From: Candidatus Moraniibacteriota bacterium
Lineage (GTDB): Bacteria > Patescibacteriota > Minisyncoccia > Moranbacterales > UBA11712
Length of the DNA stretch: 34,291 bases
Assembly (NCBI GenBank): GCA_028695025.1
Contig: JAQVJV010000010.1
Location: forward strand, 1-34,291
Reading direction: 5' to 3'
A model generated the notes under the pieces. The model did no database searches and had not been told where the DNA came from. It saw only the letters and a list, made by a program, of their open reading frames with translations. The first letter of the stretch is position 1. Each line of letters opens with the position of its first letter. A program made the translations under genes and the position numbers. Below are positions 166-7,907 of the stretch, piece by piece.

Positions 166-291
166 ATAACAAGTTATCGGAAATAATTAAAAGTTTTTTA
201 TCCGCTTCGCGGATAATTATTTGGGACTATTTTTTATTTTTTTCCTACAAAAACTATTGACAAAACAATGCAAATGATGATAACTTGTTAT
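166..291. repeat. 13-bp inverted repeat pair spanning 126 bp
   Basis: ATAACAAGTTATC at 166-178 is the exact reverse complement of GATAACTTGTTAT at 279-291. The spacer holds a small hairpin (198-216, stem TTATCCG, loop CTTCG) and a -35 box. The 3' arm runs into GTTATGT, the same seven bases that close the attC-like site at 2359-2365. The 5' arm starts ATAACAA like the attC-like site at 3744. This could be a third, degenerate site or an operator pair over the promoter below. There is no gene between 107 and 432. Confidence 0.55.
257..284 (+). promoter_or_regulatory. candidate sigma70-type promoter of the peptide/radical SAM unit
   Basis: A perfect -35 TTGACA (257-262) is followed after 16 bases by GATAAC (279-284), which matches four of six -10 positions. 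The -10 lies inside the right arm of the 13-bp inverted repeat, so a protein bound to the repeat would block it. Transcription would give a leader of about 140 nt before the peptide gene. Confidence 0.45.
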
Positions 292-396: not shown

Positions 397-432
397 TAAT
401 TAAGACAATAGGCAAAGAAAGGAGGAAATGCC

Positions 433-516
433 ATGCAACCGGAAATCAAAAAGAAACCGGAAAAGAAGCGCGTGAAAGTGCGTATCGGCAAGGGCAGCTG
501 CAGCATCTGCGACTAG
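433..516 (+). CDS. 27-residue Cys-containing peptide, putative RiPP precursor
   Basis: A very short gene encodes a 27-residue peptide. The first half is Lys/Pro/Glu rich (MQPEIKKKPEKKR) and the C-terminus is GKGSCSICD, with Cys23 and Cys26. GGAGG at 421-425 lies seven bases before this ATG. The upstream ATG at 428 is too close to that motif. The gene is followed after 63 bases by a radical SAM/SPASM enzyme. A charged leader, a short Cys-bearing C-terminal core and an adjacent SPASM maturase are the standard arrangement of ribosomally made, radical-SAM-modified peptides (sactipeptides, ranthipeptides, mycofactocin). I infer that the last seven or so residues are the modified core. The peptide matches no family I can name, and no transporter or protease gene is adjacent. 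Confidence 0.65.
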   Translation: MQPEIKKKPEKKRVKVRIGKGSCSICD

Positions 517-530
517 CCCGTCCACCAACC

Positions 531-559
531 GAGGGGAGGGTTGAAAAAACTCTCCCCTC
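531..559 (+). terminator. intercistronic hairpin (attenuator or processing site)
   Basis: GAGGGGAG (531-538) pairs with CTCCCCTC (552-559) around a 13-nt loop, followed by ATTTCATTT rather than a clean T-run. It lies between the precursor peptide and its enzyme. A leaky terminator or RNA-stabilising hairpin in that position is common where a small peptide must be made in excess over its modifying enzyme. Confidence 0.55.
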
Positions 560-579
560 ATTTCATTTAGGAGGTAAGC

Positions 580-1659
580 ATGGAATGCAAAATTGAAACC
601 CCTCGTCTGGAAGTTGAGACCGAAGATACTATCTATGAGATAGAATTCGGCCAAGTCCAGATTGAAATTACAGGTCGATGCAATATGAGTTGCCAGCACT
701 GCAGAGCAGCCCATCAGCCCAAGCAAGACATGCCGATCGAACAAATCGTCAAAATCATCCGGTTTGCTCGACAGTTCAGTCCGAATTACAAAGAAGTGAT
801 CCTGTCTGGCGGTGAGCCATTGATACATCATGACTTCGCCGATGTCCTAAAACAAGTCCGCGAAAACGGCGGTGAATTCATCACCCTGACGACCAATGGG
901 TCGCTGCTTACGAGCGAACACCTTACGCTGATTAAAGATTTATCTTTTCAGCGTTTCGTGCTTTCGGTAAGTCTGGACAACCTAGACCCGACTAAACATG
1001 ATGAATTCCGCGCCCATAAGGGAGCCTTCCCCAAAGCCGTCGACGCTTTACGTCTGGTAGCCGAGTGCAACCTGCCAAATATTGTTGCTTCAATGCGCTC
1101 TACCATCCAGGCGACACAGATCAACGAGATGGAACGCATGGTGATCTTTGCGAAAGAAATTGGATGCAAGCGGGTTAGCTTCTCGGCGATACACCCAGCC
1201 GGCAAAGCAATCGAACGCGACGATCTCTGGATGAGCAAGGAGCAGAAGCTGGCGTTCATAAAGGAGGTCTATCGACTCAAGAAGCTGTTCCCAGATCTCA
1301 ACGTAACCACGAACGATCCCCTGAAGTGCCTACTCCGGGGGAAAAGCGATCAGGGCCAAGACGGTGAGCTTGTCTTTGACGGTTGTGGTGCGGCGGCTAT
1401 CACCTTCAACGTCAACTCCGACGGCACGATGACCCCATGCGCGCTACTTGACATACCGATGATGAAAGTTTTTCCTCTTACCATCGAGGAAATAACCGAG
1501 CGTTATCGAGAAAACCCCATCGTCAAAAACATGCTGGCAATGAACCTCAAAGGCAAGTGCGGATCCTGCCAAATGAAATACCAATGTGGCGGATGTCGCG
1601 CCCGTGCTTTAATCCAAAAAGGGGATTATCTCGAGGAGGACCCTCATTGTTGGGTGTAA
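580..1659 (+). CDS. radical SAM/SPASM peptide maturase
   Basis: This 359-residue protein has the radical SAM cluster motif CNMSCQHC (Cys34, 38, 41), the SAM-binding GGEP at 77-80, and a C-terminal SPASM domain. The SPASM cysteines are C269, C287, C327-x2-C330-x5-C336-x2-C339 and C357. These would hold two auxiliary 4Fe-4S clusters in addition to the SAM cluster. Such enzymes cleave SAM to a 5'-deoxyadenosyl radical and install thioether, C-C or decarboxylative changes in peptides. The overall pattern, including the CGGCRARA stretch, is closest to mycofactocin- and PqqE-type maturases, but no N-terminal RRE peptide-binding domain is evident. The start is set by AGGAGG at 569-574. It is clearly more GC-rich than the methyltransferase that follows, suggesting acquisition together with the peptide gene. 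Confidence 0.9.
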   Translation: MECKIETPRLEVETEDTIYEIEFGQVQIEITGRCNMSCQHCRAAHQPKQDMPIEQIVKIIRFARQFSPNYKEVILSGGEPLIHHDFADVLKQVRENGGEFITLTTNGSLLTSEHLTLIKDLSFQRFVLSVSLDNLDPTKHDEFRAHKGAFPKAVDALRLVAECNLPNIVASMRSTIQATQINEMERMVIFAKEIGCKRVSFSAIHPAGKAIERDDLWMSKEQKLAFIKEVYRLKKLFPDLNVTTNDPLKCLLRGKSDQGQDGELVFDGCGAAAITFNVNSDGTMTPCALLDIPMMKVFPLTIEEITERYRENPIVKNMLAMNLKGKCGSCQMKYQCGGCRARALIQKGDYLEEDPHCWV

Positions 1660-1746: not shown

Positions 1747-2211
1747 ATGAATACCTACTTAAAAAAATTTATTGAAGAAAAATTTAAAAAACCAGGCAAA
1801 GCGCTGGATTTAGGAGCTGGTGATTTTTTTGATGTTGCTTGTCTGAAACAGTTAGACTGGAAATGCGAAGGAGTGGATGTGAAGACAGGAGTTAATTTGG
1901 AAAAATATTTTTTATCAAGAAAACGACCCTTTGATCTGGTTTTTTCAAATTATGTAATACATAAAATACAAAATAAAAAACAATTAATTAAAACAATTTT
2001 TGATAATCTAAAAGAAGACGGCTGGTTTTTTATTCACACCTTTGATAAAAAAGACAAGAATAGTAGGTCAAACTTGACGGCAAGTGACTTACGGAAAATA
2101 TTATCCAAACAGGGTTTCAAAAATATTAAAACCAGAATGTTTAGTTATTACGACAACGAAGAGGGACATAAACATTGGCATAAAATTTTAGAAGCAACCG
2201 GAAAAAAATAA
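1747..2211 (+). CDS. small class I SAM-dependent methyltransferase
   Basis: This 154-residue protein has SAM-binding motif I ALDLGAGDFFDV at about residues 19-30, an acidic motif II (GVDV), and the post-motif stretch FDLVFSNYVIHKI with LKEDGWFFIHTF typical of Methyltransf_11/TehB-like Rossmann methyltransferases. The acceptor cannot be predicted. The gene is AT-rich, has its own -10 box, and is cut off from the upstream maturase by a strong terminator, so I do not assign it to the peptide pathway. It is followed by an attC-like site, as expected of an integron cassette gene. The start is the only in-frame ATG before motif I that fits the promoter. Confidence 0.8.
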   Translation: MNTYLKKFIEEKFKKPGKALDLGAGDFFDVACLKQLDWKCEGVDVKTGVNLEKYFLSRKRPFDLVFSNYVIHKIQNKKQLIKTIFDNLKEDGWFFIHTFDKKDKNSRSNLTASDLRKILSKQGFKNIKTRMFSYYDNEEGHKHWHKILEATGKK

Positions 2212-2260
2212 AAAATAGCCCCAAATAATGTTTTGCTTCGCAAAACAAAAACTTTTAATT
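2212..2260. other. short AT-rich spacer with a GTTTTG/CAAAAC hairpin
   Basis: GTTTTG (2230-2235), loop CTTCG, CAAAAC (2241-2246) forms a small hairpin without a T-run. No gene is visible from here to 2674. The rest of that gap holds the attC-like site, one inverted-repeat arm and two terminators, listed separately. Confidence 0.4.
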
Positions 2261-2365
2261 ACATCCGATAACAACGAGTATCCGGTTACGGCTTTTTCCA
2301 AAAGCCTCCACCCAAATTTTCTTACGCTTCGCTTCAGAAAACTTCGGATACTCGTAACGTTATGT
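2261..2365 (+). other. attC-like recombination site 1
   Basis: The outer inverted boxes are ATAAC (2268-2272) and GTTATGT (2359-2365, near the R' consensus GTTRRRY). After short unpaired spacers, CGAGTATCCG (2275-2284) pairs with CGGATACTCG (2345-2354). The variable part carries its own hairpin GGCTTTT/AAAAGCC. Its 3' half closely matches that of the site at 3742-3870 in the same orientation, including CTTCGGAT and TAACGTTAT. Two nested stems with spacers are the attC architecture. It follows a short ORF directly. No integrase is in the window. Confidence 0.55.
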
Positions 2366-2443
2366 GAAATAAAATTCCTTTTCTTTTTTAAATTTGCTTT
2401 TTTATAATAAGGAAAAATAAGTTTTTTATCTTTTATAGAGGGG
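2359..2443. repeat. left arm of long imperfect inverted repeat
   Basis: The reverse complement of 2359-2401 matches 3706-3748 at 40 of 43 bases. Beyond that the similarity continues patchily to AGAGGGG at 2437-2443, which is complementary to CCCCTCT at 3658-3664. The arms enclose a 1.4-kb segment with a single GC-rich gene. This extends well outside the attC-like boxes, so it is not explained by their symmetry. Confidence 0.75.
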
Positions 2444-2674: not shown

Positions 2675-3337
2675 CTACACGATTTCGATCTCCTCCCCTT
2701 CCGGTTCCGGCATTTCAGCCTCCGGATCCGTTTCGGGTTCAGGCTCGGGACGCTCGGGCGGCGACAAGAGCGAGGTGACCACCCTGTGAATTGGGAGGAT
2801 ATGCCTTTCGTCCACCGACTCAATGGCCGGGTGCTCGCAATCCTCGTCCGGATCGGCCTGGCATGTACGAACCAACACGTACTCGGAGAGTGTACTCCCC
2901 TCATACACATTGATCCACGCGTAGCCCGGGAGCGCCGAGTTAACCTCATCGCGACGAACATAGCCGGACTCGGTCGCCACCGGGTCGAGGATGATGTACC
3001 CACCGACCCGTCCGCTCCAGTTCCATACGAGGAGCGGCATGATCCACGCATCCTCCGGACGCGGCGTGGTTGGCTCGCCGTGTTGTTCGCGGACGACCCG
3101 TCCACCGACGATCGATCCGACTCCACCCGTGAAAATATGCAGGGTGGGAATGCGGATCCCCTCGGGGGCTTCGTCACGCGTTTCGCGGATAAACAGGCGC
3201 CGCGTGCACGCGCCGGACTCCGGCGAATGGAACTCGACGAGTTCCACCTGGGCATATTTGCCCACATTGCCGTTTAGCTCCGAACCCGTCCACAACTTAC
3301 CGGCTCCTCCGATTCCCGTTTCGATCTTTGTCCACAT
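2675..3337 (-). CDS. acidic 220-residue protein of unknown function
   Basis: I do not recognise this protein. It has no signal peptide or membrane segment. Glycine- and valine-rich, beta-like sequence (for example WNWSGRVGGYIILDPV) fills the first 180 residues. The last 30 are a Pro/Glu tail (PERPEPEPETDPEAEMPEPEG), probably disordered. It holds three cysteines and several RRDE-type charged turns. The start is fixed by AGGAG seven bases before the ATG. It has a perfect promoter about 200 bases upstream and its own terminator. It is far more GC-rich than its flanks and runs opposite to the neighbouring cassette genes, so it is probably an imported unit. Overlapping frames on either strand lack a ribosome-binding site. 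Confidence 0.75.
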   Translation of the reverse strand: MWTKIETGIGGAGKLWTGSELNGNVGKYAQVELVEFHSPESGACTRRLFIRETRDEAPEGIRIPTLHIFTGGVGSIVGGRVVREQHGEPTTPRPEDAWIMPLLVWNWSGRVGGYIILDPVATESGYVRRDEVNSALPGYAWINVYEGSTLSEYVLVRTCQADPDEDCEHPAIESVDERHILPIHRVVTSLLSPPERPEPEPETDPEAEMPEPEGEEIEIV

Positions 3338-3427
3338 AGTTTTTCTCCTTTTGGTTTTCCCTGCCTCCCTTGCGGTGAGGGCTTATGGGTACTGCCTGTC
3401 GATTAGTTTTTTTGGAGATCGCAATGA

Positions 3428-3479
3428 TTCGTGATCCCCATTAAGCGATTATTTCTACCCGCCTAATGGGGATCACGAA
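3428..3479 (-). promoter_or_regulatory. 20-bp leader hairpin
   Basis: TTCGTGATCCCCATTA (3428-3443) is the perfect reverse complement of 3464-3479. On the minus-strand RNA the pairing extends through one G-U and three more pairs to about 20 bp, with a 12-nt loop. It sits in the long 5' UTR of the gene at 2675-3337, about 60 bases after the predicted transcription start. No T-run follows, so it is not a simple terminator. Confidence 0.75.
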
Positions 3480-3540
3480 ACGTGGTCAAATTATGAAAGA
3501 ACTATATCAGATAAACTTTCTCAAGTTTAAATGACCTTTA

Positions 3541-3569
3541 AGTATAGCATCTTTTAAGTAGTTTGTCAA
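3541..3569 (-). promoter_or_regulatory. strong sigma70-type promoter
   Basis: On the minus strand TTGACA (3569-3564) and TATACT (3546-3541) are separated by exactly 17 bases. It drives the gene at 2675-3337 with a leader of roughly 195 nt. Confidence 0.85.
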
Positions 3570-3657
3570 TAGTTATACCGTTAAATGGCTTGTTTTAGCT
3601 AAATAATCCAAAAATACAATAAGGAGTTTTGGGCTTTGGGCATTCACCCCTTTAGTT
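3570..3657. other. gene-free spacer
   Basis: No gene is visible. TTTTGGGC near 3636 can pair with GCCCAAAA near 3666 around a C/T-rich loop. Otherwise I see nothing between the promoter at 3541-3569 and the right inverted-repeat arm. Confidence 0.4.
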
Positions 3658-3748
3658 CCCCTCTGCCCAAAATCAAAAACAAAAAACTTATTTATCATTT
3701 AGAATAAAAGCAAATTTAAAAAAGAAAAAGAATTTTACATCACATAAC
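3658..3748. repeat. right arm of long imperfect inverted repeat
   Basis: The partner of 2359-2443. The best block is 3706-3748, with 40 of 43 bases complementary. It ends in CACATAAC, which is also the first box of the second attC-like site. Confidence 0.75.
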
Positions 3749-3870
3749 AAAGCATATCCGGTTCAAAAATTTTGCACTATAATATAATAAGGAAAGCAAA
3801 ATTTCCTCTCCCAAATTTTTTTTCCGCTATCGCTGCACAAAAACTTCGGATGATGCCTAACGTTATACGC
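3742..3870 (+). other. attC-like recombination site 2
   Basis: ACATAAC (3742-3748) and GTTATAC (3862-3868) form the outer boxes. Inside, GCATATCCG (3752-3760) pairs with CGGATGATGC (3847-3856), leaving a single G at 3852 unpaired. A protruding extrahelical base in this arm is a hallmark of attC sites read as folded single strands. The variable part is about 85 bases. It shares the TATCCGGTT start and the ACTTCGGAT...TAACGTTAT end with site 1. Confidence 0.6.
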
Positions 3871-3944
3871 AATTCAAAAAATATTTTTTATGAGGAATTT
3901 TGACAGGCTTTTTTAAAAAAGGGGAATAAATTTTTTTATTAAAT

Positions 3945-4157
3945 ATGTTCAAACACTACAAAAAAATGAGCCATTGGCATCGCTCATTATACTATCTCAT
4001 CACAGGCATCGGAATCATCATTTTTTGGAGAGGAATATGGGGATTGTTGGATGTATATCTGTTCCCCGACAATCCAGCATTGAGTTATATCATCTCCACA
4101 ATCGGCGGACTGCTAATTCTATTTCTTAACGACTTTTCAATAGAAGAAATCGGCTGA
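3945..4157 (+). CDS. small two-helix membrane protein
   Basis: This 70-residue protein has a charged start (MFKHYKKMSHWHR) and two hydrophobic segments, at about residues 14-32 (SLYYLITGIGIIIFWRGIW) and 44-63 (ALSYIISTIGGLLILFLNDF), with a short loop and an acidic tail. It has no catalytic motif, and I cannot assign a function. It is the first gene after the second attC-like site. A TTGACA at 3900-3905 could be a -35 box, but no good -10 follows. There is no strong Shine-Dalgarno motif, so the ATG is chosen as the only one before the first helix. Confidence 0.6.
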   Translation: MFKHYKKMSHWHRSLYYLITGIGIIIFWRGIWGLLDVYLFPDNPALSYIISTIGGLLILFLNDFSIEEIG

Positions 4158-4193
4158 TTTTCCAATAAAAATTCCGGAAGCAATTTATTTTTT

Positions 4194-4526
4194 CTAATTC
4201 TGCAAATTTCCGTTTCTATCTTTTTTGTTTTTTGGAATTAACGTCATCATTTCATTGTACAGTTTTTGTATGCGGCCATAAGATTCCACAATACCCTTTA
4301 AATCTTCATCCCTGTCTATTATTTCAATCTGTTGTGTAGCCTCTTTAAACGAAATTTCCCCTCTTTCAAGTTTTTCCATTACGCCATTCACCTTCTCAAA
4401 GAGCGTCTCATTATATCTTTGATCAATCATCTTCAAAATCTTGACCAATTCAACCGCAACCGCGATGAATTGTTTTTCCGGATCCTGAAGTTCTTTGAAA
4501 ATTTTTTTGTCTTTTGCGTATTCCAT
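4194..4526 (-). CDS. hypothetical 110-residue helical protein
   Basis: An entirely charged, probably helical protein (for example LVKILKMIDQRYNETLFEKV and EKLERGEISFKEATQQIE) with no membrane segment or recognised domain. It starts five bases after the serS stop on the same strand and probably shares its transcript. The longer open frame reaching back into serS is rejected because that part is a shadow of serS. The start MEYAKDKK has no Shine-Dalgarno motif, like the other core genes here. Function unknown. Confidence 0.6.
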   Translation of the reverse strand: MEYAKDKKIFKELQDPEKQFIAVAVELVKILKMIDQRYNETLFEKVNGVMEKLERGEISFKEATQQIEIIDRDEDLKGIVESYGRIQKLYNEMMTLIPKNKKDRNGNLQN

Positions 4527-4531
4527 ATTAT

Positions 4532-5794
4532 TTATTTTTTTATCACTCCCATCCCCTCCGGCATCCATTTGCGAAGGACTTCCGGGACGACAATCGACCC
4601 GTCGGCTTGCTGGCCGTTTTCGATGACGGCAATCAAAGCCCGGGAAATTGCCACCGCTGTGCCATTGAGCATATGCAAATACTCTTTCGTCCCGTCGGCG
4701 CATTTCACTTTCACATTGAGCCGCCGCGCCTGGTATGTCGTCGTGTCCGAGGTTGAAGTCACTTCCCCCCAACCGTCGCGGCTGGTCATCCAAGCTTCAA
4801 GGTCGTATTTGCGATAAGCCGGCCCGCCAAGGTCCCCCGTGCAAATATCCACCACCCGGAACGGCACGCCGAGCTCCTTGAAAATTTCCACTTCGATATT
4901 CTTGATTTCCATGTGCATTTTCTCGGATTCTTCCGGAGTTGTATAGGCAAACATTTCCACTTTCGTGAACTGGTGGACGCGATAAAGCCCCGCGCTGTGC
5001 CGTCCGTATGACCCCGCTTCCGTGCGATAGCAGTGCGAAAGCGCGACATACCGAAGCGGCAATTTGTCTTCGGGAATAATTTCATCCATATGATACCCGC
5101 CCATCGTGATTTCCGCCGTCCCGACAAGGTTGAGGTCTGTGTTTTCGACGGAATAAATCTGCGTTTCCGATCCGCGCGGATTATATCCGATCCCAAGAAG
5201 AACCTTGTCCTTCGCAAGATCCGGCGTCGTAAACGGCACGAATCCTTTTTTCACCAGTTTTTCAAACGCAAAATTGATGAGTGCCTGCTCCAAAAATACC
5301 GCTTCGTTTTTGAGAAAATAGAACTTTGCTCCCGTCACTTTCGCTCCCCGCTCAAAATCGATCAAATCAAGATCTATCATCAGTTCCTCGTGCCCTTTCG
5401 GTTCGAAATCGAACTTTGGCGGCTCGCCGTATCGCTCGATTTCTTTGTTCTCACTGTCGTCCTTCCCGATCGGCGAATCCGGATGGGTCATATTTGGAAC
5501 GGCAATAAGCAGTTTTTTCCACTCTTTTTCCGTTTCCAAAAATTCCGGCTCGATTTTTTCGAGCTTCGTTTTGACATCTTTCCCCTTTTCGACCAAAGCC
5601 GCCTTGTCGGAAGCTGATTTTATTTCGTCGTTGATTTTGTTTTTCTCCTCTTTGAGTTCCCCGATTTCCGTGATCATTTTCCGCCGTTTTTCGTCCAATT
5701 CCAAAAGCCGGTCCACGTCGCACCCGATATTTCGGAGTTTACAATTTTTTTTCACCTCCTCCGCATTCTCGCGGATAAATTTGATGTCTAGCAT
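4532..5794 (-). CDS. serS: seryl-tRNA synthetase
   Basis: Charges tRNA-Ser with serine. The 420-residue length is normal. The N-terminal MLDIKFIRENAEEV leads into the long antiparallel coiled-coil arm (about residues 25-100) that grips the tRNA extra arm. The class II core follows: motif 2 region RYVALSHCYRTEAGSYGRHS with GLYRVHQFTKVEMF, then GDLGGPAYRKYDLEAWM, and motif 3 LNGTAVAISRALIAVIEN with its arginine. I start at MLDI. A TTG five codons upstream is possible but adds nothing conserved. It lies downstream of lysS and upstream of a small hypothetical gene on the same strand. Confidence 0.95.
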   Translation of the reverse strand: MLDIKFIRENAEEVKKNCKLRNIGCDVDRLLELDEKRRKMITEIGELKEEKNKINDEIKSASDKAALVEKGKDVKTKLEKIEPEFLETEKEWKKLLIAVPNMTHPDSPIGKDDSENKEIERYGEPPKFDFEPKGHEELMIDLDLIDFERGAKVTGAKFYFLKNEAVFLEQALINFAFEKLVKKGFVPFTTPDLAKDKVLLGIGYNPRGSETQIYSVENTDLNLVGTAEITMGGYHMDEIIPEDKLPLRYVALSHCYRTEAGSYGRHSAGLYRVHQFTKVEMFAYTTPEESEKMHMEIKNIEVEIFKELGVPFRVVDICTGDLGGPAYRKYDLEAWMTSRDGWGEVTSTSDTTTYQARRLNVKVKCADGTKEYLHMLNGTAVAISRALIAVIENGQQADGSIVVPEVLRKWMPEGMGVIKK

Positions 5795-5861: not shown

Positions 5862-7328
5862 TTATTTATCCTTCATCGGCGGAAATATAACCGTTTCCCG
5901 AACAGACTTGTTCATGAGAAACGCGAATAATCTTTCTGAAAATCCGAATCCGAATGCCGGCGGCATGCCATATTCAAGCGCTTCCACGAAATCATCGTCA
6001 AGCATTTGCGCCTCCGCATCCCCCGCCGCGCGAAGCTTCATCTGCTCCTCGAACCGGGAGCGCTGGTCAATCGGATCATTGAGCTCGGAAAAGCCGTTCC
6101 CCAATTCCGACCCGCCGGCCAAAAATTGCATCCGAAGCACTTTTCGAGGATCTTTCGGGTCGCGCTTCGCAAGCGGCGAAACTTCAATCGGGTGTCCGGT
6201 GAGAAAACAAGGCTGGATCAGCTTGGGGCGCACGGTTTTTTTGTATATCGTATCGATCATCCGGCCTTTGCCATAATTTTTCTCGTATTTGATGCCCAAT
6301 TCGTCCGCTTTCTTTTGCAAATCCCCGGCTAAAACTTCCTTATCAAGATCAATTCCGGTTTCAGCTTTGAATAGCTTGAAATAATCCTTGACTTCCCATT
6401 CTCCTGCCCAATTAATTTTATGATTGCTGAATTCGGAGACTAAGTCTCCAATTGGAGACTTAGTCTCCAATGTTTTTCGCACAATCTCTTTGAACATTTT
6501 TTCGACTATATTCATCCCCTGCTTGAGGCTAGTATACGCCATATAAAATTCCAGCGAATCATATTCCTGCAAATGCTCGCGGTCAATTCCCTCATTTCGA
6601 AAAACGCGCCCGATTTCAAAAACTTTTTCATAGCCGCCAACAAGAAGCCTTTTGAGATGCAATTCCAAAGAAATACGCATGAAATAGTCGCGGTCAAGCG
6701 CATTGTGATGCGTGACAAAAGGTTCCGCTTCAGCTCCGCCGGGAATATTCTCAAGCACCGGGGTTTGCGCCTCGAGAAAACCTTTTTTCGCCAAAAAATT
6801 GCGCGCCGTCTGCCAAAAAATATTTTTCTTCCGGAAAAGTTCGCGCGTTTCGGGATTCATCATGAGATCAAGATACCTGCGGCGCAGGAGCTCCTCTGTG
6901 TCCCGGACGCCGTAATATTCCGTCGGCACCGGAGAAAGGCTCTTGGAAAGTATTTCCCATTCCGCCACTTCAACTGTGATTTCTTCCGTTTTTGTTTTGA
7001 AAAGTTTGCCTTCCGCTTCAATGAAATCCCCGATTTCAACCGTTTCCGTGAAAAGCTTGAATTTTTCATCACCGATATTTTTCTTGTTCAAAAAGAGCTG
7101 GATTTTCCCCGATTCGTCTTCAATATGGCAAAAAGCCGACCCACCCATCGGCCGAAGCGATTTGACTCTTCCGATAACTTTAATGGCTTTCTCGCCCAAC
7201 GAATCGCACTTTTCAACTGCTTCCCGGTTCGTCATCGTCCGTTCGGATTTTTCCGGATAGGGATTTATTCCGGCACTACGCAGTTTTTCCAATTTCTCAA
7301 ACTTTATTTTTTTGATTTCATCCAGCAT
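5862..7328 (-). CDS. lysS: lysyl-tRNA synthetase, class II
   Basis: Charges tRNA-Lys. This 488-residue protein has an N-terminal OB fold (about residues 50-150, VIGRVKSLRPMGGSAFCHIE) that reads the anticodon, then the class II core with FEIGRVFRNEGIDREHLQEY (motif 2). Motif 3 is unusual: GFGFSERLFAFL and then VRETVIFPPM, where most bacterial enzymes have a GIDRL-type stretch, though the arginine is kept. Residues about 287-298 (ETKSPIGDLVS) are encoded by a perfect 34-bp palindrome and look like an insertion. I start at MLDEIKKIKF; a TTG five codons upstream is the alternative. Confidence 0.93.
   Translation of the reverse strand: MLDEIKKIKFEKLEKLRSAGINPYPEKSERTMTNREAVEKCDSLGEKAIKVIGRVKSLRPMGGSAFCHIEDESGKIQLFLNKKNIGDEKFKLFTETVEIGDFIEAEGKLFKTKTEEITVEVAEWEILSKSLSPVPTEYYGVRDTEELLRRRYLDLMMNPETRELFRKKNIFWQTARNFLAKKGFLEAQTPVLENIPGGAEAEPFVTHHNALDRDYFMRISLELHLKRLLVGGYEKVFEIGRVFRNEGIDREHLQEYDSLEFYMAYTSLKQGMNIVEKMFKEIVRKTLETKSPIGDLVSEFSNHKINWAGEWEVKDYFKLFKAETGIDLDKEVLAGDLQKKADELGIKYEKNYGKGRMIDTIYKKTVRPKLIQPCFLTGHPIEVSPLAKRDPKDPRKVLRMQFLAGGSELGNGFSELNDPIDQRSRFEEQMKLRAAGDAEAQMLDDDFVEALEYGMPPAFGFGFSERLFAFLMNKSVRETVIFPPMKDK
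6435..6468. repeat. 34-bp perfect palindrome inside lysS
   Basis: GGAGACTAAGTCTCC, then centre AATT shared with GGAGACTTAGTCTCC. The whole is its own reverse complement, and each half is itself nearly palindromic. It encodes ETKSPIGDLVS in frame. Sister copies are at 19207-19242 and 33393-33428. Confidence 0.95.
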
Positions 7329-7451
7329 GGGTATAAATGACAAGCATTAAAATCTAGTGATATATTAACGTTTTTTTAGAAAAAAAACAAGAGACAAGTC
7401 TGAAGCCCATCCCTTGCCAAAATATTGTTTGCTATCCCTTGATCACTGCCG

Positions 7452-7907
7452 CTACTTCACTTCCAGAATCTCGTATTCCTGCTCGCCCGCCGGAGTTGAA
7501 ACTTTCATTTTGTCCCCCGCGCTTTTCCCCATGAGCGCTTGCCCGATCGGAGATTCATTGGAAATTTTCCCGCCCAAAGGATCGGCTTCGTTCGATCCGA
7601 CAATCGCGAAAGTCTGTTCATTGCCATCGAATTTCACTTTGACGCTTGAGCCCATTTGCACCGTCTGGCTTTCCTTGTCGAAACTCGAAACTTCCGAAGT
7701 GCGGATTTCGTTTTCCAGTTCGATAATGCGGCGTTCATTGTCCGCCTGTTGGCGCTTGGCTTCGGAATATTCGGCGTTTTCGCTCAAGTCTCCCTGTTCC
7801 TTCGCTTCTTTGATTATTTCCGCGATCTTCTGCCGCATTTCGGTTTTCCGCATCTGAAGTTCTTCTTCCAGTTTTTTGAGCCCCTCGGGCGTGAGAAATT
7901 TTGTCAT
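7452..7907 (-). CDS. greA: transcript cleavage factor GreA
   Basis: Rescues backtracked RNA polymerase by stimulating cleavage of the nascent transcript. It is 151 residues, close to the usual 158. The start MTKFLTPEGLKKLEEEL opens the N-terminal coiled coil. The tip carries GDLSENAEY with the catalytic acidic pair Asp40 and Glu43. The C-terminal FKBP-like domain runs from about residue 80, with the conserved SPIGQALMGKSAGD. The longer frame with a hydrophobic prefix is rejected because its extra part holds the promoter. The gene stands alone between lysS and the PBP2 gene. Confidence 0.95.
   Translation of the reverse strand: MTKFLTPEGLKKLEEELQMRKTEMRQKIAEIIKEAKEQGDLSENAEYSEAKRQQADNERRIIELENEIRTSEVSSFDKESQTVQMGSSVKVKFDGNEQTFAIVGSNEADPLGGKISNESPIGQALMGKSAGDKMKVSTPAGEQEYEILEVK

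Follow-up and report, generated by a model that had tools for sequence, protein, structure and literature searches.

An apparently undescribed family of very short Cys-x2-Cys peptides and radical SAM/SPASM-type maturases, with a frequent methyltransferase partner, in Patescibacteria and one nanoarchaeal genome

Leader-binding RREs are common, but not universal, in radical SAM RiPP systems. In the ranthipeptide (freyrasin) pair PapA/PapB, the SPASM-type enzyme PapB forms a bond between the Cys and the Asp beta-carbon of a CX3D motif (PMC9413430). The precursor holds six such motifs, and the leader-directed action of PapB is reported to depend on an RRE. SkfB and the SCIFF maturase CteB carry N-terminal RREs, and the wide distribution of SCIFF has been used to argue against a bacteriocin role (PMC8326336). 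PQQ (PqqA/PqqE/PqqD) and mycofactocin (MftA/MftC) are also made from a short precursor and a SPASM enzyme, the RRE not being fused in the case of PqqE. Additionally, genes for a SPASM maturase or for a UbiE-like methyltransferase occur in some CPR graspetide loci of ATP-grasp branch 2, for which precursors were often not found (PMC8939145).

The locus described here lies in the window, i.e., the whole stretch of DNA analyzed, which covers the initial 34.3 kb of a contig from a 0.98-Mb, 99% complete genome; the nearest named relatives are Patescibacteria/CPR genomes (Falkowbacteria, Campbellbacteria). Re-reading of the sequence upheld the coordinates and content given in an earlier note, namely, a 27-residue peptide followed by a radical SAM/SPASM-type maturase, together with the GGAGG placed 7 nt before the peptide ATG. 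The same note had taken the locus to consist of two genes only, which proved incomplete, as a class I methyltransferase is part of the unit as a frequent third component. The features are listed below (coordinates, strand, description).

198..242, plus strand: left inverted repeat, a small hairpin and then TTATTTGGGACTATTTTTTATTTTTTTCC, inward-facing, also in G448
421..425, plus strand: ribosome-binding site GGAGG
433..516, plus strand: gene of the 27-aa precursor peptide, which has a basic N-terminal part and the core GKGSCSICD, in 15/15 homologous loci
531..559, plus strand: hairpin in the peptide-maturase gap, GAGGGGAGGGTT/AACTCTCCCCTC, resembling a terminator or attenuator
580..1659, plus strand: 359-aa radical SAM/SPASM-type maturase without RRE, CX3CX2C preceded by an acidic N-terminal stretch of 33 residues
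1679..1708, plus strand: terminator-like hairpin between maturase and methyltransferase
1747..2211, plus strand: class I SAM-dependent methyltransferase, 154 aa, Pfam Methyltransf_23, the third component
2202..2247, minus strand: right inverted repeat, a small hairpin and then TTATTTGGGGCTATTTTTTATTTTTTTCC, inward-facing, also in G448
2262..2366, no strand given: attC-like recombination site with inverted arms and a bottom-strand fold, marking the right edge of the unit
3738..3870, no strand given: another attC-like site, beyond the neighboring GC-rich minus-strand ORF 2675-3337

The peptide encoded at 433-516 is MQPEIKKKPEKKRVKVRIGKGSCSICD. A basic peptide ORF of 20-37 residues was found just upstream of the maturase in all 15 maturase-family loci that were read, preceded by a GGAGG-type site in most of the other bacterial copies, and each peptide has a Cys-x2-Cys motif near its end. 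Twelve of the 15 peptides belong to the C-x2-C-D group (including one C-x2-C-S and one with an added TNG), and the three of a deeper branch end in K-C-R-C-x-T-C-D-x-N; examples are MKNKVVKKRIKVRIGKGSCSICD from G128, MKKPKQKKRLKVRIGQNGCRTCDTNG from G112, and MKKRAKNPDTNKKRVRVTMLKCRCFTCDSN from G532. C-x3-D is present in 14/15 peptides, the exception being the CX3S peptide of G304, which ends in C-x2-C-S. The C-x2-C core pointed out in the earlier note is present, and it is better described as C-x2-C-D, which contains C-x3-D. Since the maturases of the G532 clade are only 36-40% identical to that of the window, the C-x2-C-D core has persisted while the enzyme diverged extensively. Close homologues of the maturase keep the Cys peptide upstream, and its reading frame is intact in the relatives. 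Beyond the Cys residues, R-I-G-K-G, an Ile, and the terminal Asp are conserved, and purifying selection on the last 12 codons is strong (pN/pS ~0.08, synonymous sites being near saturation). The peptide ORF beside the maturase is not a chance occurrence; a degenerate DNA pattern for the peptide end gave one match in the window and none in 100 shuffles, and a looser pattern gave one match in the whole 0.98-Mb genome. No NCBIfam family matches any peptide of the family, the window peptide and its 14 relatives returning zero family matches even at E 10.

The radical SAM motif of the maturase, CNMSCQHC, spans residues 34-41, and the protein's SPASM-type cysteines number seven (C269, C287, C327, C330, C336, C339, and C357), six of which are invariant in A1. 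Pfam recognized Radical_SAM and Fer4_12 only, and the Pfam SPASM model did not match the protein; the SPASM assignment is based on the cysteines, the full-length NCBIfam matches, and the fold match. The best PDB fold matches of its AlphaFold model were SkfB, SuiB, PqqE, and CteB, all of them peptide-modifying enzymes, and the best PDB profile matches were SkfB, in the leading position, and CteB. The protein matched 88 NCBIfam families, with NirJ2, TIGR04053, AhbD, and GeoRSP as the best, and because none of these matches was near its cut-off, the maturase has no curated equivalog. The NirJ2 and AhbD profiles gave 157.6 and 139.6 bits vs cut-offs of 500, the PqqE profile 82.6 bits vs 381, and the PapB profile NF047865 78.2 bits vs 340 over residues 27-349; the MftC profile was absent among the NCBIfam families listed for the maturase. 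No PqqD-like (RRE) Pfam match was obtained in the maturase, the methyltransferase, or ORF 2675-3337, and no transporter or protease was recognized beside the pair, in agreement with the earlier note. Its reading of a RiPP-like precursor/maturase pair of no described class likewise stands, with linkage in 15/15 loci and no curated family covering either the peptide or the maturase, and a search limited to open-access papers returned nothing on this family. The precursor-maturase family is real, conserved, and apparently undescribed.

Note that the L017/L058 radical SAM protein (L058, 36% identity) was excluded from the family, since it has no peptide and lies outside on a long branch. Its gene (L058:9699-10778, genome G215), without a CxxCD peptide, is located near a second radical SAM/SPASM gene (3312-4700), which is adjoined by the methyltransferase-like ORF 4758-5468.

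Like PapA/PapB, the window unit combines a SPASM-type radical SAM enzyme with Cys-x3-Asp in the precursor. Unlike that pair, its maturase falls far short of the PapB cut-off and has no RRE, its peptide has a single C-terminal motif instead of six, and a methyltransferase accompanies the unit. The SCIFF/CteB and sactipeptide SkfB/AlbA systems share the maturase fold and the Cys donors in a small precursor, but the family described here has precursors of only 20-37 aa in patchily distributed CPR genomes, and in contrast to SkfB and CteB the window maturase has only ~33 residues before CX3CX2C. PQQ and mycofactocin resemble the unit in their short precursor and SPASM enzyme, and PqqE in its unfused RRE; at the same time, the unit has no Tyr core, recognized PqqD/MftB homologue, or equivalog score. 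The Glu-x3-Tyr feature of the PQQ precursor is absent from the window peptide, which has zero Tyr, and so is the MftA core, the peptides ending in CxxCD. The CPR graspetide loci, compared by description only, come from the same bacterial group, but neither an ATP-grasp gene nor a graspetide-type precursor was recognized at the window locus. NirJ2 and AhbD, SPASM enzymes of heme pathways, provide the best full-length curated profiles, though far below their cut-offs, and a peptide rather than a tetrapyrrole is the expected substrate. Among radical SAM RiPPs, the family stands out for the size of its precursor, the absence of an RRE, the methyltransferase partner, and the mobility among host-dependent microbes.

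Taken together, a three-gene, horizontally mobile RiPP-type system composed of maturase, peptide substrate, and methyltransferase is the probable reading of the locus, and with higher confidence the peptide can be regarded as the substrate of the adjacent maturase. According to the proposed mechanism, the radical SAM/SPASM enzyme would take the neighboring 27-aa peptide as its substrate, the basic, beta-strand-prone N-terminal part (..KKRVKVRI) would act as a built-in leader, and this leader would probably pair with the maturase through an acidic beta-hairpin at the enzyme's N-terminus, which would take the role of an RRE. Within the family, the leader parts have a net charge of +4 to +12, and the maturase N-termini (~33 residues before the cluster motif) one of -3 to -7. 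Docking of the peptide on the maturase by a single-chain fold was not supported; in the AlphaFold model, for which both ORFs were joined by read-through of the TAG codon and folded as one chain, the maturase was modeled and the peptide region had pLDDT < 50. The modification would fall on the C-terminal core G-K-G-S-C-x-I-C-D. Its single most likely chemistry, proposed tentatively, is a thioether that joins Cys23 and the Asp27 beta-carbon, with Cys26 free or linked in turn, which was chosen because the core contains Cys-x3-Asp, the motif cross-linked by PapB. Against this chemistry, the maturase scores higher on the NirJ2/AhbD profiles than on that of PapB, and the G304 peptide has no Asp. Release of the core is also unexplained, neither a protease nor an exporter being linked to the unit.

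The methyltransferase, with a predicted structure of pLDDT 96 and an invariant HxHWH near its C-terminus, adjoins the pair on the same strand in eight loci (the window, G448, G128, G341, G304, G170, G544, and G561/L005), downstream of it in some and upstream in others. It is present in 8/10 loci with judgeable flanks and a peptide ending in CD or CS and in 0/4 loci with a longer peptide C-terminus (P 0.015, confounded by ancestry). The genomes of L007 and L008, whose peptides end as in the window, have no methyltransferase, and none was found in that of L009, the contig of which breaks inside the maturase. Among 380 sampled genomes of the phylum, the methyltransferase occurred in 7, the maturase in 7, and both in 5 (P ~7e-9, a value that treats the genomes as independent, whereas they are related). 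In the proposed pathway, the enzyme would methylate the maturase product, plausibly at the C-terminal carboxylate; this target is favored because of the distribution between CD/CS and longer ends and because the methyltransferase is kept in G304, with its Ser end, but methylation at the product's C-terminus must be considered doubtful.

In G138, the same methyltransferase family adjoins other radical SAM genes, and the enzyme may therefore have a general role in tailoring peptides within the phylum. This CPR locus (L069:3468-12469) carries several radical SAM genes, two of them with a confirmed SPASM domain, a relative of the window's methyltransferase at 6781-7272, and, at 6453-6668, a basic ORF of 71 aa with a single Cys, and is possibly a second RiPP-type system. 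In clade B, a polymerase-beta-type nucleotidyltransferase-like gene instead occupies the position next to the maturase in two of the three loci.

Besides CPR contigs, sampled phylum genomes and one nanoarchaeal MAG yielded relatives of the maturase. The unit occurs in 7/380 sampled phylum genomes (the genome of L058 being removed from the count), in 6/192 genomes of one class, and in 1/279 genomes of the nanoarchaeal phylum, and sister genera are often without it. The archaeal maturase (L008) is 75-76% identical to that of the window, and its contig also bears an archaeal-looking gene (by eye, diphthine-synthase-like TP_methylase). Two maturase copies are decaying, the truncated one of G170 (L053:8480-8926) and the frameshifted nanoarchaeal one (L008:4709-5787), with the peptide intact in both. 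G448, which belongs to a different class of the phylum, shows 83% DNA identity to the window over 207-2362, including the non-coding parts; the homology ends on the right exactly at the AACGTTA of the attC-like site 2262-2366, and on the left it is bounded by the inverted repeat at ~196-207 rather than by an attC end. Searching for inverted arms with a bottom-strand fold gave two attC-like sites in the first 4.2 kb vs 0.02 in shuffles. The best score for an integron integrase (TIGR02249) in the window genome was 114 bits vs a cut-off of 265, from a Xer-like protein. Archaeal integrons are known, mostly as integrase-less arrays, with a proposed role in transfer across domains (PMC9668308). Based on the identity with G448, the inverted repeats, the attC-like end, the patchiness, and the single nanoarchaeal occurrence, the unit has spread horizontally and appears to be mobile between genomes, either an integrase-less cassette or an inverted-repeat element being its possible vehicle.

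A third attC candidate at 160-297 was treated as a chance occurrence, as its 13-bp arms are not kept in G448 or L009; its right arm overlaps a conserved promoter-like stretch. The GC-rich 220-aa ORF at 2675-3337 (minus strand), located between the two attC-like sites, has no Pfam match and a composition unlike its surroundings, and looks like a second foreign gene cassette. At the contig edge beside the unit (1-106), an ORF end resembles by eye the C-terminus of a DDE transposase. In the uncultured C24_bin-1043 (L005:3895-7629), the unit is apparently inside a ribosomal-protein operon, the flanking ORFs being, by eye, L2-like (3895-4743) and S19-like (7279-7629). Carriage by viruses was rejected, since IMG/VR gave distant radical SAM proteins only and no peptide match, and so was carriage by plasmids or phages, whose records reached <= 28% identity. 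Isoleucyl-tRNA synthetase was also dismissed as a shared neighbor of L007 and L008, the two proteins being only 37% identical and two shared neighbors in ~26 slots being expected by chance. The Campbellbacteria synthetase itself (L007:6156-9746, 1196 aa) has a histidine-phosphatase domain inserted mid-synthetase at residues 537-710. An antiphage role was not retained, the PADLOC matches reflecting generic viperin radical SAM and methyltransferase similarity only.

Such a patchy, mobile distribution, together with two or three clustered Cys residues at a flexible end and a basic tail, would suit a modified Cys-x2-Cys peptide that serves as a metal- or Fe-S-binding metallophore, or is directed against competitors or at a host, and spreads as an accessory trait; this specific role is unlikely, a linked transporter or receptor gene being absent. 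An intracellular redox cofactor such as PQQ or mycofactocin, as the earlier note had suggested, would agree with the lack of a recognized exporter or protease gene nearby and with the short precursors and SPASM enzymes of both pathways. However, the system is rare in the phylum and often missing in sister genera, two of its copies are decaying, it is horizontally acquired, no co-inherited dehydrogenase gene is adjacent, and the peptide does not have the Tyr core of PqqA or MftA. With partner dehydrogenases absent and a patchy, horizontally acquired distribution, nothing speaks positively for the redox-cofactor suggestion, and we consider it improbable. A secreted or cell-contact peptide connected with a host-associated lifestyle seems slightly more likely than a core redox cofactor.

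The hairpin in the gap between the peptide and maturase genes is conserved in position, being present in 14/15 loci with stems unrelated in sequence (mean z -2.6 vs dinucleotide shuffles) and starting roughly 7-45 nt past the peptide stop codon; the sole locus without it is the archaeal copy. Rfam gave no match in the window. This layout is expected if the substrate must outnumber the enzyme, and the hairpin after the peptide gene would then leave the peptide in excess. It also admits the reading of the peptide as a regulatory leader, in which stalling at the Cys codons before the hairpin would tie the transcription or translation of the maturase and methyltransferase genes to the supply of cysteine or SAM, and both the place of this terminator-like hairpin and the two Cys codons near the ORF end are compatible with such control. 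Attenuators conserve control codons only, whereas conservation here spans R-I-G-K-G, the Ile, and the terminal Asp; moreover, the peptide is retained in the archaeal copy even though the hairpin is missing there, and an unsystematic look revealed no alternative anti-terminator pairing, so that a regulatory leader is very improbable. A tetrapyrrole-type (NirJ/AhbD-like) enzyme with an unrelated small ORF, as the best curated profiles, NirJ2 and heme b synthase AhbD, might suggest, is hardly credible, given scores far below the cut-offs of 500, the 15/15 peptide linkage, and the lead of SkfB in the PDB by fold and by profile.

The three-gene system with a maturase-modified peptide may, as a possible though uncertain extension, represent a new class: very short (20-37 aa), RRE-less radical-SAM peptides with acidic-hairpin recognition of a basic strand and a dedicated methyltransferase, encoded by a self-contained mobile unit of ultra-small bacteria that has crossed into an ultra-small archaeon. 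The pair of a 20-37-aa peptide and its enzyme is a tractable system for studying RRE-less peptide recognition by a SPASM maturase. The small genomes of Patescibacteria seldom keep dispensable genes. The unit adds to the few peptide-product systems reported from this group, in which CPR graspetides have been described (PMC8939145). Flanked by inverted repeats and attC-like sites and spread across classes and to a nanoarchaeon, the unit offers a case study of the sharing of accessory functions among such genomes. If true, the new class would rank among the earliest peptide-product pathways to be linked with host-dependent life in ultra-small organisms.
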